64,000 bases of DNA from positions 62,001-126,000 of the forward strand of contig NZ_ML660056.1 of assembly GCF_007004665.1 (NCBI RefSeq), given 5' to 3'. The notes under the pieces are model-generated. The model ran no database searches. It was not told the DNA's origin and saw only the letters and a program-made list of their open reading frames with translations. Numbering within the stretch: the stretch's first letter is position 1; every line of letters begins with the position of its first letter. Below, piece after piece: positions 36,614 to 43,559 of this stretch. Source of the stretch: Denitrobaculum tricleocarpae. GTDB taxonomy: Bacteria > Pseudomonadota > Alphaproteobacteria > Kiloniellales > Kiloniellaceae. The translations under genes and the position numbers were made by a program.

Positions 36614-38302
36614 ATGACATCTCAGGGAAAATTGCGCACGGGCGGACGGATCTTGGTTGATCAGCTCCGCCTGCATGGCGTTGATACCGCGTTCGGCGTG
36701 CCGGGGGAGAGTTATCTCGCGGTGCTGGATGCGTTCTATGACGTGCCCGAGATTGCGTTCCGGATCTGCCGGCAGGAGGGTGGGGCGGCCATGATGGCGG
36801 ACGCCTACGGAAAGCTGACTGGTCAGCCCGGGATCTGCTTCGTAACCCGGGGGCCGGGCGCGACCAGCGCCAGCGCGGGGGTTCACATCGCCTATCAGGA
36901 TTCGACCCCGATGATCCTTTTCATCGGCCAGGTCGGCCGCGACATGATCGAGCGAGAAGCCTTTCAAGAGATCGACTACCGCCGCATGTTCGGTCAGATG
37001 GCCAAGTGGGTGGCGCAGATCGACGATGCCGACCGGATCCCCGAGTATCTGGCGCGCGCTTTCGCGACTGCGACATCCGGGCGGCCCGGGCCCGTGGTGC
37101 TGGCGCTGCCCGAAGATATGCTGCGGGACATGACCGCAGCGCCGGATGCCAAGCCTTACAGGCCCGCCGAGGCGCATCCTTCACTTGCGGATATGAAGCG
37201 CCTTGGCGATCTCGTCGCCGCGGCGAAGCGACCGTTGATGATTTTGGGCGGTACGTCCTGGAATGCCCAGGCCTGCCGGCACATTCAAAGCTTCGCTGAA
37301 GCCCATGGCCTGCCAACGACGGCATCCTTCCGGTGTCAGGACTATTTCGACAATCGCCATCCGAACTACGCCGGTGACGTCGGGATCGGAATCAATCCCA
37401 AGCTGGCTGACCGCGTTCGTGAGTCGGACCTGGTTCTTGTGGTGGGCGCGCGTCTGGGTGAGATGACGACCGGCGGATATACCCTCTTCGACACGCCGGT
37501 ACCCAAGCAAACCATGGTTCATGTGCATGCCGGTGCGGAAGAACTGGGGCGGGTGTACCAGCCCGAATTGGCGATTAATGCCGGGGTCAAGGCTTTTGCG
37601 GCAGCCGCCGCGGCCTTGAGTCCGCCAAAATCGCCGGACAAGGCGCGGAAGGAATTGGTCTCGACAGCCCGCAATGAATACGAGGCGTACATCGAGACAC
37701 CAAGCATACCGGGCGATGTGCAGATGGGCGAAATCATGGCCTGGCTGCGCGAACGCCTGCCGGAAGATGCCATTATCAGCAACGGTGCCGGCAACTATAC
37801 GACCTGGGTGCACCGCTTCTATCAGTACCGCAGCTTCCCGACCCAGCTTGCGCCGACATCCGGCTCGATGGGCTACGGCTTACCTGCGGCGGTGGCGGCC
37901 AGCTCGGTCTTTCCCGAGCGCACGGTGGTCTGTTTTGCCGGCGACGGTTGCTACATGATGCATGGCCAGGAACTGGCGACCGCGATGCAGTACGGCCTCA
38001 AGATCATCATCCTGGTGATCAACAACGGCATGTACGGTACCATCCGCATGCATCAGGAGCGCGAGTACCCAGAGCGCGTCAGCGGTACTGAACTGGTCAA
38101 TCCGGATTTCGCCGCCTACGCCCGCGCGTTCGGCGCAAACGGCGAGGTGGTGGAGCGGACGGAACAGTTCGCACCGGCTTTTGAGCGCGCGATGGCGGCC
38201 GAGGGGTCAAGCCTGATCGAGATCCGGATTGACCCCGAAGCAATTACACCGAAAACGACTCTCGCGCAGATCACGGCCGCTGCGCAAGCGAAGCTATCCT
38301 AG
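36614..38302 (+). CDS. thiamine-diphosphate-dependent enzyme, acetolactate-synthase-like
   Basis: 562 residues from the ATG at 36614, with three TPP-enzyme domains: N-terminal PYR domain with catalytic Glu55 in CRQEGGAAMMADAYGKL, a central Rossmann-like domain, and a C-terminal PP domain with the metal/diphosphate motif GDGCYMMHGQELATAMQYGL and N following. Without an adjacent small regulatory subunit it is unlikely to be the main IlvB; decarboxylases and lyases of the same family are alternatives. The 277-base gap to the divergent deacetylase gene should hold both promoters. Its TAG stop is the first three bases of an inverted-repeat element. Confidence 0.85.
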   Translation: MTSQGKLRTGGRILVDQLRLHGVDTAFGVPGESYLAVLDAFYDVPEIAFRICRQEGGAAMMADAYGKLTGQPGICFVTRGPGATSASAGVHIAYQDSTPMILFIGQVGRDMIEREAFQEIDYRRMFGQMAKWVAQIDDADRIPEYLARAFATATSGRPGPVVLALPEDMLRDMTAAPDAKPYRPAEAHPSLADMKRLGDLVAAAKRPLMILGGTSWNAQACRHIQSFAEAHGLPTTASFRCQDYFDNRHPNYAGDVGIGINPKLADRVRESDLVLVVGARLGEMTTGGYTLFDTPVPKQTMVHVHAGAEELGRVYQPELAINAGVKAFAAAAAALSPPKSPDKARKELVSTARNEYEAYIETPSIPGDVQMGEIMAWLRERLPEDAIISNGAGNYTTWVHRFYQYRSFPTQLAPTSGSMGYGLPAAVAASSVFPERTVVCFAGDGCYMMHGQELATAMQYGLKIIILVINNGMYGTIRMHQEREYPERVSGTELVNPDFAAYARAFGANGEVVERTEQFAPAFERAMAAEGSSLIEIRIDPEAITPKTTLAQITAAAQAKLS

Positions 38303-38373
38303 GTTGGGAGCTCCTATTCCTTGACGGTCTTGACGACAAAATTATGTTTTCTGGCAAGGAGTTAAGAGTGGAG

Positions 38374-38389
38374 CGATGCCATAGCATCG
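38374..38389 (+). repeat. small hairpin within the inverted-repeat element
   Basis: CGATGC at 38374-38379 pairs with GCATCG at 38384-38389 around the loop CATA. Confidence 0.55.
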
Positions 38390-38433
38390 TGCTTAGTCAG
38401 AATTGGACCGATGACACGACGCTGTCCAGACCT

Positions 38434-38460
38434 TGGTTCCCAGAACGTGGTTCCCAGAAC
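38434..38460 (+). repeat. two copies of a 13-bp unit within the element
   Basis: TGGTTCCCAGAAC occurs at 38434-38446 and 38448-38460, period 14. Confidence 0.8.
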
Positions 38461-38538
38461 TCATAATCTTATCGCCTGAGGACCACGTCCCAGGCGGGTC
38501 GTATTTTGTCGGGTTTCAGGTGCGTTGACGCCTCTTAC

Positions 38539-38554
38539 CGGGCCTTCAGGCCCG
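38539..38554 (+). repeat. apical hairpin of the inner inverted repeat
   Basis: CGGGCC at 38539-38544 pairs with GGCCCG at 38549-38554 around TTCA. It caps the 22-base inner arms of the element; no T-run follows directly. Confidence 0.6.
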
Positions 38555-38639
38555 CTTTCGAGCCCTCGCCTGCCTAAAACCCGGCAAAATACGATCAAGA
38601 CCATCAAAGAATAGGAGTCCTCAACCTAGAGAGACAAGG

Positions 38640-39269
38640 TCAGGGAACACTGAGTGTGCTCAGGTCGCCCAGACGCGGCTGACGAAGCGCGGTCTGTACG
38701 ATCACGCCCTCGGGCAACAACCCCCCGGAGTCGAAGAAACTTGAGAGGAAATCGAGGAAAACCGGCTCGAAGCGGAAATACACCTCCGCTGTAATGACGT
38801 TTTCATTGTCTCTGACAACAAACCCGGCGGGCATGTTGGCCGGATCGCCGACACCGCCGTATAAGCTTGGAGGTAAGGTGGGGCCTGCACCTTGGATCTG
38901 CCATGTGATCTCTGCCGGGTCGCCAGGGTTCTTATAGACCGAACTCACGATCACACCGCCTTTCGATGCTAGATCGAAGGGCTGCACAACCTCAATTGCG
39001 GCAATCATAAGCTGGTTGATTTCGGCCGCCGATATACTGGACGGACGCGATGTCAGGTCCGACATGGTTGCAGCTGCCCGGTCAAGTTTCTGGTTCAGCA
39101 GCATGTAGCGGCCCATATCGAACATACCGAGCAGCATGAAGAGGATCACCGGGACGATAAAGGCAAACTCGATGATGGTTACGCCCGACCTGTCAGACAC
39201 AAAGGAGTGATACTGGCGGGCTATCTTGAGCCTATAACTGTTCAATACGGCATTCATTTCGACACCCAA
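38640..39269 (-). CDS. TadE/TadG-like pseudopilin-type protein
   Basis: 209 residues. A short basic N terminus, then SGVTIIEFAFIVPVILFMLL at about 28-47: the TadE hydrophobic segment with Glu at +5 relative to the Gly, expected to be processed by the prepilin peptidase. The periplasmic part has no von Willebrand domain, so it is TadE-type rather than full TadG. Last gene of the minus-strand Tad pilus run, three bases after another TadE-like gene. The start is uncertain; MNAVLN four codons later is possible. Confidence 0.82.
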   Translation of the reverse strand: MGVEMNAVLNSYRLKIARQYHSFVSDRSGVTIIEFAFIVPVILFMLLGMFDMGRYMLLNQKLDRAAATMSDLTSRPSSISAAEINQLMIAAIEVVQPFDLASKGGVIVSSVYKNPGDPAEITWQIQGAGPTLPPSLYGGVGDPANMPAGFVVRDNENVITAEVYFRFEPVFLDFLSSFFDSGGLLPEGVIVQTALRQPRLGDLSTLSVP

Positions 39270-39271
39270 AC

Positions 39272-39772
39272 CTATTCTTCTCTGTAGGGCTCATTGCGGA
39301 CGGCGACCGTCGCCGTCATCGGCAGTGAACCGCTCGAACCGGCGAAGACAGAGAAAACGGGCGTCATGTATTGCCATTCGTATTCAAGCCGATAGAAAAC
39401 AACATCGTTTGCGTCACCTGCTCCGGGCGTGCCTGGACCACCGTCGTCGCCTGAAAAGTCGGGGTAGACAGTCACGCTGACGTTGGCCTCGGAAACGTCA
39501 ATAAGCCCATGGGTATGATCTGAGATGATTTCCAGGATCTTGTCCTGGCGGGCTGCTGGATCGACTTCCTGGCCTGTGACGCCAAATCTGGCGGCCTCAC
39601 GCAGACCACCCTCGGCAAGAGTCAGGGTGAACATGACCATTGCTATCTCCAGAGCGCCAAACAGCAACAGCAAGAATGCAGGTAGAATGAGGGCAAATTC
39701 AATTGCTGCGAGTCCGTCTTTGTTGTCTCTGAAGCGGCGTATGACTTGCCGTATCGGCATTGTCGTCAGCAT
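39272..39772 (-). CDS. TadE-like pilus assembly protein
   Basis: 166 residues from the ATG at 39772 (an in-frame ATG at 39832 exists). DGLAAIEFALILPAFLLLLFG at the N terminus is the TadE pseudopilin segment with the conserved Glu; the rest is a small periplasmic domain (EGGLREAARFGVTGQEVDPA). Minor pilus subunit of the Flp/Tad system. 102 bases lie between its favoured start and tadC, in the same orientation. Confidence 0.83.
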   Translation of the reverse strand: MLTTMPIRQVIRRFRDNKDGLAAIEFALILPAFLLLLFGALEIAMVMFTLTLAEGGLREAARFGVTGQEVDPAARQDKILEIISDHTHGLIDVSEANVSVTVYPDFSGDDGGPGTPGAGDANDVVFYRLEYEWQYMTPVFSVFAGSSGSLPMTATVAVRNEPYREE

Positions 39773-39874
39773 AACTCTCAATCCTCGGTCATCGGTTGTC
39801 CTGGAATGTGATACCGCCGTTATCTCCCACATGGCATAGCCACACTCTCGTGGCGCTTATCAATTGGTTTATTC

Positions 39875-40849
39875 CTACACGCCACTCAGGGCGTCTATGG
39901 TCCGTACGATCGCAGGTCCAAGGAGGACCACGAAAAGCGGGGGAAGAATGAATAGGATCATGGGCACGGTCATCATCGCCGGAAGCCGTGCGGCTTTTTC
40001 TTCTGCTTTGAGCATCCGTTCATCGCGAGACTCTGTGCTCATAACCCGCAAGGATTGCGACAGCGGGGTGCCGTAGCGTTCGGCCTGAACGAGCGTATTG
40101 ACGAGACTGCGGATGATCTGCAGATCGGTCCTTTGGGCTAAATTGTCGAGGGCTGCCCGCCGCTCAGGCAAAAAGCCGAGTTCAAGGCCGGTCAAGCTGA
40201 ACTCATCAGCAAGCTCGGGGGCGGCCGAGGCCATTTCCTGCGAGACGCGTGTCAAAGTCGCGTCGAGACTCAGGCCAGCTTCTGTGCAAATGACCATGAG
40301 GTCGAGTCCGTCTGGAAGCGATTTCCGGATGGCTTCCTGACGTTTCTTTGACGCATTTTTGATTATGACATCAGGCATATATGCGCTTACGCCAATTACG
40401 CTGATGCAAATTATCAGCTTCATGCCGTCGGACAGGTTGTAGCTGTCGAAGCCGTAAAACATCAGGAGCGCCACACCCCCCAATACGAAGGGCAGGGCGA
40501 GTTTAAAAAAGAGATACTGGATTACAGCTTCTTTCGAGCGCCAGCCCGCGCACATCAGCTTGTTAGAAATATTGCCGGCCTGTGCGGATTTCATGAGCTG
40601 CAGGCGCTCGACGACCTGGCGCATAAAGGATGCCGTGTTCAGGCGTTCGCTGCGCCGCCGCGGAGCAAGCATACCGCTGCGCAAAGCCGAACGCTGCTCG
40701 GCGAGAACCTTCGCTCGTTTCTGCGAAGGGTCGCGGTGAATGAGCGATGACCATACCGCAGCGAAGCAGACAAGCACTGTTATTGAAGCCATGACAACGA
40801 TCACGTCTTCGGTCGTAACCCCGGCAGGAAGATAGGCTTCAATACTCAT
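39875..40849 (-). CDS. tadC: Tad type II secretion F family membrane protein
   Basis: 324-residue inner-membrane platform protein (T2SSF domain). The N-terminal helix covers about 15-35, a cytoplasmic helical domain carries the family part LPDGLDLMVICTEAGLSLDATLTRV, and two strong helices close the protein (MMTVPMILFILPPLFVVLLG). It overlaps tadB by four bases. TadB and TadC together anchor the CpaF motor. Confidence 0.92.
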   Translation of the reverse strand: MSIEAYLPAGVTTEDVIVVMASITVLVCFAAVWSSLIHRDPSQKRAKVLAEQRSALRSGMLAPRRRSERLNTASFMRQVVERLQLMKSAQAGNISNKLMCAGWRSKEAVIQYLFFKLALPFVLGGVALLMFYGFDSYNLSDGMKLIICISVIGVSAYMPDVIIKNASKKRQEAIRKSLPDGLDLMVICTEAGLSLDATLTRVSQEMASAAPELADEFSLTGLELGFLPERRAALDNLAQRTDLQIIRSLVNTLVQAERYGTPLSQSLRVMSTESRDERMLKAEEKAARLPAMMTVPMILFILPPLFVVLLGPAIVRTIDALSGV

Positions 40850-41856
40850 ATTTCGAACTTGACCATTTTATACATCGTGCCGATCCCGACACCGAACATT
40901 ACGAAACCGCCTGCGAGCATCATGTTACCTCGTGGGTCATGCCATAGCGTCATGACGTACTCGTTGTTGATGAAAAACAGCAACAGGAACATGATGAAGG
41001 GCAGGCTGCCGATAATGTAAGCACTGGCCTTCGCTTCAGACGACATGGCCTTAATCTTGAATTTCATTTGCTTGCGCTTGCGCAAAATGTCCGAGAGGTT
41101 AGACAAGGTTTCCGCCAGGTTGCCGCCGGTTTCGGTTTGGATGGACAGTGCGACTGTGAAAAAGTTGAACTCGGGAATCATCAGCCGATTTGCTGTGTCC
41201 CAGAGAGCATCCTCGATCTTGCTGCCGATTTTAACAGCTTCGAAAATACGTGTGAGCTCCTCGCCAACCGGCCCGGGAATTTCCTGTCCTGCGGATTTCA
41301 TCGACTCGGTAATGGGCAGGCCGGCTTTCAGGCCACGAACCATCAAGTCGATTGCATCGGGAAAGTGCGCAATAAACTGGAGTTGCCGGCGCTTGGCCAT
41401 GATTCCGAGTGCAAAGTGCGGTACTCCGATGACGCCCACGAGCCCGAAAAGCCCTGCAATTATATTAGGAAAGCCGAAGGCTATCCTGCCAATCATGTAC
41501 GCGACAACGCCACTGAGTAGGCACATCATCAGGTAGCGGCCCAACGCAGGCTTTACGCCCGCACGCTCTAACCTGTCACGGAGCAAATCGGGACGGGGCA
41601 ACAGCGTTTTGATCAGCCGGTCGACGAGGGCATAACGACTATCGGCTGTCGCGCGGCGGACGCTAACCACAGTCTGCACCGATTGATCGACGTTTCTCAC
41701 ATCACCCGTGGCGCGTTTGATGCGCCGTTTGAAGTTCCGATTCGTTCCATCGCCCGCGAAGGCCGCGGCAATGAGCATGACCCCACCCAGCATCGGCAGG
41801 CACATGAGGATCAATGTCATCGTCGGATCGTTGTTGGTGAGGAGGGAAAGATCCAC
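40846..41856 (-). CDS. tadB: Tad type II secretion F family membrane protein
   Basis: 336 residues, T2SSF domain with HFPDAIDLMVRGLKAGLPITESM, an N-terminal helix and three C-terminal helices. The longer, first of the paired platform proteins, placed directly after cpaF (the genes share a base). Partner of TadC in Flp pilus assembly at the inner membrane. Confidence 0.92.
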   Translation of the reverse strand: MDLSLLTNNDPTMTLILMCLPMLGGVMLIAAAFAGDGTNRNFKRRIKRATGDVRNVDQSVQTVVSVRRATADSRYALVDRLIKTLLPRPDLLRDRLERAGVKPALGRYLMMCLLSGVVAYMIGRIAFGFPNIIAGLFGLVGVIGVPHFALGIMAKRRQLQFIAHFPDAIDLMVRGLKAGLPITESMKSAGQEIPGPVGEELTRIFEAVKIGSKIEDALWDTANRLMIPEFNFFTVALSIQTETGGNLAETLSNLSDILRKRKQMKFKIKAMSSEAKASAYIIGSLPFIMFLLLFFINNEYVMTLWHDPRGNMMLAGGFVMFGVGIGTMYKMVKFEI

Positions 41857-43559
41857 TACATCGCCTCCAACAGCCGTTGTTCCAGTCCGAAGTATGCCGC
41901 CTTTTTGGCGAAGAACGGCCGAAGGCCGGAGGATTTGAAACTGCCGACGAGGTTTCCGTCCGCGTCTTCTCCCTCGAACTCAAAGGTGTAAAGGTCCTGT
42001 GTCGTTATGATCTCCCCCTCCATTCCCACGATTTCAGTAATGTGGGTGACCCGGCGCATACCGTCGCGCATACGGGAGATCTGAACGATCATGTGGACCG
42101 CGTCTGAGATTTGGGTCCGCACGGCCTTTGCCGGCAGGTTGATGCCGGCGAGGCCAATCATGTTTTCGAGACGTGTCAGGCCTTCGCGGGGTCTGTTTGC
42201 GTGGATCGTACCCAGTGAGCCATCATGGCCTGTGTTCATGGCTTGCAGCATGTCCACGGCTTCGCCACCGCGAACCTCACCAAGAATAATTCTGTCAGGA
42301 CGCATACGCAGAGTGTTCTTCACCAGATCGCGCATGTCGATGGCGCCTTCACCCTCAAGGTTTGCAGGGCGGGTCTCCAACCTGACCACATGCGGCTGTT
42401 GCAGTTGAAGTTCAGCCGCATCCTCGATAGTGACGATGCGTTCGCCGGGGTCGATCATCTGCGAAAGGGCATTCAACAGTGTGGTTTTACCCGAACCGGT
42501 ACCACCGGAGATCAGAATGTTAAGCCTGCTGCGTGCGGCGATCTTGAGCACCATCGCCATCTTTTCGTTGATATTGCCCTGGCGCGCCATGACGTCCAGC
42601 GTAATGCCCTTCTTGGCAAACTTACGAATGGAGATAGAGGCGCCGTCGATTGCGAGAGGTGGTATGACGATATTGACACGGCTGCCATCCAGCAAACGGG
42701 CGTCGACGAGGGGAGTCGTCTCATCGACGCGTCGGCCGATCTGGGCGACGATGCGACGTGAGATATTCACAACATGATCGTTGTCCCGGAACTTGATGTC
42801 GGAGAGCTCAAGTTTGCCGCCACGTTCGACATAGACCTGATAAGGTCCGTTCACCATAATATCGGTGACTTTCTCGTCGGCCAATAGCGGTTCGAGTGGT
42901 CCAAGGCCGAGCATGTCCGCCAGCATTAGTTCGACCACACCCGCTTGCTCCGGGCCATTCAACCTGATTTTTTCCTCCGCAAGGACCTCGGAGACGATCT
43001 CGCCGAGTTGACTCGAGAGTTCTTCGCGTGGCAACTGTGAGGCTGCTGAAACATCCAGTCTCTCCATGACCTTCGCATGGATGGCATCTTTTGCAGCTTC
43101 TACGGTGTCGGTGATCGGCGCCTTGGTTTCAAGGCGACGCTCGTCGATCTTAAATGGGTCAGGTTGATCCGGCACCGCCGCTGCGTTTGCCTGCGAGGAT
43201 GGTGCAGGGGGAAGATCCGGCACAGACGCACGCTCTGCGGAACTCGCCACTTGTGTGCTCTGTTGCTGGGTGGGTGCCGACTGCTTTGGATACTGCGCGG
43301 TGACCCAGTTGATGAGTTCGGTCAAGAGAGTCCGGCGTTCCAGCAGGTTCAGATTGTTGGGTTGCTTCTCGAATTCAGATGTAACGAGTTGCCCGAGCCG
43401 CAGACCGAGTTCCGGTCGCGACAGCTGCGATATTTCAAGGCCGCTCAGGCACTCAGCGACTTTCGGCTTTAATTGCTCGATGTACGGGGCGAGATTTGAC
43501 TGTGCTTGTGCACTGGCTTTCCCCGGCTTCGCATTTTTGCGCTGCGCGAATATCGACAT
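41856..43559 (-). CDS. cpaF: CpaF/TadA pilus assembly ATPase
   Basis: Hexameric secretion ATPase powering Flp pilus assembly. 567 residues: a Pro/Gln/Ala-rich variable N terminus (about 1-130), the N-terminal domain with [23 protein letters not shown], Walker [15 protein letters not shown] at about 355, [11 protein letters not shown], the His box [15 protein letters not shown] and Walker B-type [14 protein letters not shown]. All ATPase elements are intact. Six bases after cpaE. Confidence 0.95.

Follow-up and report, generated by a model that had tools for sequence, protein, structure and literature searches.

The window, a 64,000-nt stretch of the Denitrobaculum tricleocarpae genome (G000), carries on its forward strand a gene for a thiamine-pyrophosphate enzyme (PRK08199 subfamily, acetolactate-synthase-like; 36614–38302), on which an opposite-strand frame (38640–39269) converges. 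The gap between the two genes is nearly filled by a 331-bp segment bounded by outer inverted arms of 35 nt (38299–38333 and 38595–38629; 86% complementary). A second pair of arms, 22 nt long and 91% complementary (38499–38520 and 38573–38594), lies inside it and directly abuts the right outer arm, with a GC hairpin, CGGGCC-TTCA-GGCCCG, as its cap (38539–38554). The left half contains a 14-bp direct repeat (38426–38453), for which TRF reports 2.5 units of CCAGAACGTGGTTC on the forward strand across 38426–38460. Neither an annotated gene nor a confined open reading frame of at least 100 amino acids is present in the element. The two pairs of arms, the GC hairpin and the 14-bp repeat had all been noted in a sequence-only reading of the DNA and proved real, the outer arms, then given as matching at about 29 of 34 positions, being refined to 35 nt. 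An additional hairpin that the same reading had placed in the left half exists as a small structure (arms 38373–38379 and 38384–38390), which really lies within a larger module bounded by its own stem (38334–38354 and 38454–38474). The predicted minimum free energy of the segment is −149.6 kcal/mol, as compared with −98.7 ± 5.8 kcal/mol for dinucleotide shuffles (z = −8.7), and none of the 100 shuffles was as low; thus, the stability of the fold is far beyond chance.

The unit that would move is somewhat shorter than the segment. Whereas the sequence-only reading had the element begin with TAG and extend over 38300–38628, the TAG being indeed an in-frame stop codon, the mobile unit covers 38302–38626 (325 bp, GGTTG...CAACC), and the remainder corresponds to two copies of a TA target duplication (38300–38301, within the target C-TA-G, and 38627–38628). 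The terminal inverted repeats occupy 38302–38333 (forward strand) and 38595–38626 (reverse strand). Between them lie module A (38334–38474), defined by the consensus structure of 38 copies and including the small hairpin at 38373–38390, and module B, a 96-bp hairpin (38499–38594) distinguished by paired changes among copies. From the translations of the convergent neighbors, the minus-strand region 38640–43559 may be read as a Tad pilus cluster, with two TadE/G-like proteins, TadC/TadB-like proteins and a CpaF-like ATPase.

Copies, target site and distribution

A DNA search of the G000 genome (6.44 Mb, 34 contigs) yielded 48 matches, a list that includes self-matches between the inverted arms; about 18 of these are near-full copies, with identities of 70–100%, and the family was found in all three congeneric Pelagibius genomes searched (G001, G002 and G003). 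The segment, which the sequence-only reading had proposed to check for single-copy occurrence and absence from relatives, is therefore neither. The copies are 70–90% alike mutually, so that nothing points to bursts in the very recent past.

Scanning all fetched loci (numbered with the prefix L) for ends and targets produced 57 candidate elements, or 52 once overlapping or doubtful calls were dropped. The candidates share the ends TA-GGTTGRGRACTC...GAGTYCYCAACC-TA, and among the 57, the base preceding the left TA is C in 42 and T in 15, and the base following the right TA is G in 47, A in 9 and C in 1. Since the left TA is followed by a G that belongs to the element itself, and the two outer bases vary independently, the duplication is TA within YTAR rather than a 4-bp sequence. 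The site of copy L012 in G000 (GTGACCG[element]GCAGGCGCG) is empty in G002 (GTGACCGTCAGGCAGGCGCG), the site of L005 is represented in G002 by one CTAG adjoining a short deletion (a near-empty site), and where L004 lies in G000, all that is left in G002 is roughly the final 19 nt of an element. One insertion, L019 in G000 and L046 in G002, has both flanks in common between the two genomes, and hence predates their split. This common insertion shows stable inheritance; no other pair sharing both flanks was present within the fetched set.

A search of 54 further genomes from the same taxonomic family and order detected no copies, and the segment had no match in the plasmids and phages searched. 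In a scan of approximately 85,000 species genomes, which required exact matches and in which the window's own species was possibly absent, the initial 28 nt of the ends were found in two genomes only, those of Pelagibius sp. Alg239-R121 and of an uncultured member of the Kiloniellaceae, both of them congeners already counted above. Considering the multi-copy dispersal, the terminal inverted repeats, the TA duplication, the empty and near-empty sites and the ends resembling those of the IS5 family (see below), the segment is very probably one copy of a MITE family that is confined to Pelagibius among the genomes searched, targets YTAR and would be mobilized by an IS5/IS427-group-like transposase. 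An old MITE was one of the two explanations that the sequence-only reading had put forward, and the multiple copies, inverted repeats, TA duplication at YTAR, empty sites and IS5-family-like ends bear it out.

Insertion at stop codons

Many copies of the family lie at stop codons. In 25 of 88 flanks, the frame terminated by the border TAG stays open over at least 100 codons, as do the other two frames in 7 and 5. With gene calls made on the joined flanks, 19 of the 52 copies lie exactly on a stop codon, 22 are non-genic and 11 are inside open frames. Copies at stop codons thus account for 19 of 41 outside genes, as opposed to 74 of 537 non-genic YTAR sites (14%; Fisher P = 2e-6), in a comparison that was conceived after seeing the data and relies on crude gene calls, with a background of 284 kb of genus DNA constituting a convenience sample (the window and the copy-carrying contigs, with the copies left in). 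When the background is limited to CTAG, 18 of 95 non-genic sites are stop codons (P = 0.0016).

Because the element starts with G, a TAA or TAG codon entered at its TA becomes a TAG stop. A transposon that starts with G and targets YTAR enters TAA and TAG stops from either strand, leaving the protein unchanged, and this combination of a stop-preserving G start and a YTAR target offers a simple explanation for why nearly half of the non-genic copies lie exactly on a stop. Selection is likely to be behind the excess, since the protein is unchanged by the insertion; the 3′ ends of genes would represent harmless landing places, as a TAG always remains.

For the thiamine enzyme, the sequence-only reading had gone further, proposing that the element, by inserting or by evolving there, fixed where the gene, and hence the protein, now ends. 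The TAG of this gene is indeed built from a TA copy and the first G of the element; however, when the flanks are joined by removing the element and one TA, the sequence reads CTA TCC TAG AGA, with the identical stop. Furthermore, the alignment with the element-free orthologues reaches residue 558 of 561, and these terminate no more than a few residues from this point, with TAA in G002 and TAG in G003 and G001. Given the same TAG after removal and the similar ends of the orthologues, the element did not set the end of the gene, and the creation of the C-terminus by the insertion is scarcely credible.

Modular interior and stem pairing

The copies come in a range of sizes (60, 164, 180, 182, 217–220, 272–288, 301–304, 315–317, 328–344, 370 and 402 bp), and the differences correspond to whole modules and to the number of 14-bp units, which varies from 0 to about 7. 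The 60-bp copy consists of both ends only, the 164-bp copy (L138) contains module B alone and the 182-bp copy (L145) module A alone. In the old insertion common to G000 and G002, the repeat has about 7 units in the former (L019, 1304–1705; G000:C5:10419-10822) and 2 units in the latter (L046, 1502–1842). The 14-bp repeat is a minisatellite inside a MITE. In one copy (C8:332018-332320), module B is inverted (C8:332190-332285), with 98% identity. The interior can be pictured as a pair of hairpin modules together with a 14-bp repeat of fluctuating length, with the modules being gained, lost, exchanged or flipped.

We assessed the pairing of the stems in an alignment of 38 copies, which are akin to one another, so that the counts given here overstate independent events. 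In the consensus structure, 97.1% of the cells are paired, two-sided changes occur at 14 of 84 pairs, and the covariation score is 0.121, as compared with 0.078 ± 0.003 for shuffled and approximately 0.03 for slid alignments. The double changes fall mostly in the module B stem, where they affect 9 of 21 pairs and where several self-complementary alleles are found (GCCGGG, GCCTGG, GGCAGGC, AGCAGGC, GACAGGC and GGGAGG), along with hybrids of two alleles.

Such changes on both sides of the stem, scoring above the shuffled and slid controls, the variety of self-complementary alleles and the location of 19 of the 41 non-genic copies at stop codons all speak for the hairpin core being a functional structured RNA or 3′-end element under selection, with mobility merely having spread it; the transcripts of the upstream gene would then end in, or gain protection from, the two-hairpin structure. 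Selection for RNA pairing was also the second explanation offered by the sequence-only reading, which had pointed to mismatches compatible with G-U pairs. The paired changes between copies are real, but the mismatches in the module B stem are G-U in 11 columns and A-C in 14. These similar numbers reveal no strand bias and are not the pattern that selection on a one-strand RNA should give. Searches of the segment against Rfam covariance models returned no match up to E = 1, and no intrinsic terminator was found in the element. Moreover, copies without one or both modules occur (60, 164, 180 and 182 bp), the two-allele hybrid stems point to recombination, and correction of palindromes yields paired changes without selection, which accounts for those observed here. 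Collectively, these observations make a selected RNA structure unlikely. Most likely, the hairpins would be kept paired by templated correction and recombination between the palindromic arms.

We attach similarly little probability to a partial domestication of the family, in which the copies would act as portable 3′-end elements, influencing the end or stability of transcripts or forming a barrier between convergent genes, with a selected stem and a variable 14-bp repeat. If this were true, copies would be favored because insertion at YTAR into a TAR stop keeps a stop.

Parent transposase and known relatives

Insertion sequences (ISs) with DUF4096/IS5-type transposases in G003, G001 and G000 have the ends TAGG......ACTCA or close to it. 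When the ends of the multi-copy IS were compared with the MITE consensus, 13 of 15 positions matched on the right and 11 of 15 on the left; for a random 13-mer (TA excluded), the corresponding chances are approximately 8e-5 for 11 of 13 and 5e-3 for 9 of 13. The IS5-type ISs of Pelagibius are 844–853 bp long, with two overlapping transposase frames. A complete, 853-bp relative of the multi-copy IS of G000 is present in L120, and the reading frames of both L119 and L120 match NF033580 (IS5 family) above its cut-off.

The closest correspondence is provided by a relic, L128 (G000:C3:534697-534862), in which the remaining, C-terminal portion of a transposase of the IS5 family is followed by a stop codon and then by TGAGTCCTCAACCTA, identical at 15 of 15 positions, including the TA, to the right end of the MITE. 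The transposase remnant matches NF033580 over the C-terminal part (E = 5e-18; 65 bits, under the full-length cut-off of 110 bits) and PF13586 (E = 6e-9). None of the four genomes yielded a complete IS whose ends match those of the MITE exactly, this truncated relic being the sole exact match. The best reading of these sequences is that a degraded IS of the IS5/IS427 type was the parent of the MITE family, the placement in the IS427 group being based on size, duplication and transposase models rather than on a tree.

Mobilization of the elements was probably in trans, through an IS5 transposase of the IS427 group, and related resident ISs may still be acting on the MITE copies. An IS5-family (IS427-group-like) DDE transposase encoded by a full IS would recognize the 13-nt ends GGTTGRGRACTCM, which at the left terminus of the segment match those of the IS5-type ISs, move the element, insert it at YTAR and duplicate TA. 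We infer both which transposase moves the MITE and whether movement continues.

Elements of the IS630/Tc1 type likewise duplicate TA, and could on this ground be considered as the parent. We looked for an IS630-type IS bearing the GGTTGRGRACTC ends of the MITE and rejected it, as the ends of the DDE_3 (IS630) genes, of which there is one each in G000, G001 and G002 and none in G003, are unlike those of the MITE. MITE-like ends occur instead on IS5-type ISs, which renders an IS630/Tc1 parent most improbable.

The assembly of G000 is interrupted by the multi-copy IS5-type IS, the copies of which are near-identical, with at least 13 contig ends lying inside its transposase gene (right halves in L156 and L158–L169; left halves in L123 and L125). 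These contig breaks suggest recent activity of this IS.

Among the open papers searched, we found no MITE from Pelagibius, and the family is apparently undescribed, the kind of element being already known. IS5-family MITEs of Porphyromonas gingivalis, namely BrickBuilt, MITE239, MITE464/PgRS and MITE700, are similarly non-autonomous, genus-restricted and intergenic, with terminal inverted repeats matching resident IS5-family ISs, and BrickBuilt also holds a tandem repeat that varies in copy number (PMC4596501). However, the P. gingivalis elements have unrelated, GAGACCTTTGCA-type ends and no consistent target duplication, and feature a 23-nt repeat unit and a distinct leader and tail, in contrast to the long palindromic arms of the Pelagibius MITE (PMC4596501). 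The Pelagibius ISs, with their 844–853 bp and overlapping frames, fit the IS427 group, exemplified by IS1248 and ISPaes1 of Paracoccus, which are approximately 830–865 bp long, with terminal inverted repeats of 13–21 bp and mostly 2-bp duplications; those ISs are autonomous, whereas the MITE lacks coding sequence and has arms that are far longer and more complex (PMC3281130). QMITE2 of Coxiella burnetii, the transcript of which is predicted to fold very stably, is also a MITE with long terminal inverted repeats, but differs in its 7–9-bp direct repeats, other ends and a simple core of 113–145 bp (PMC10969869).

With these elements, Pelagibius, a marine genus that has received little study, gains a MITE family, together with its likely parent family, target rule and modular core. 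The excess at stop codons and the variable 14-bp repeat are among its less ordinary traits.

Exact matches to the 14-mer TAGGTTGRGRACTC also occur without an element (G000:C7:105676, L074; L059–L061 in G001; L062 in G003; L072–L073 in G002), and exact sites of this kind are commoner than the roughly 0.2 expected per genome. The TAG of the isolated sites is often the stop codon of a gene, with the other end overlapped by the TGA of a convergent gene. These sites initially resembled excision scars at convergent stops, a reading that does not hold for several of them: the site in L128 belongs to the terminus of the IS relic, some others are decayed copies, one site in G002, orthologous to a copy in G000, preserves a MITE end and nothing more, and L073 and L062 align straight through to relatives, with no insertion. 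The excess of exact sites over expectation nevertheless persists.

A second palindromic repeat of about 126 nt, TATCCCGAATCTGAAATTCACTTCATTGAATTTCAGATTC..., with copies 94–98% alike, is present in G002 and adjoins several MITE copies, in the left flank of L101, the right flank of L108 and the left flank of L115.
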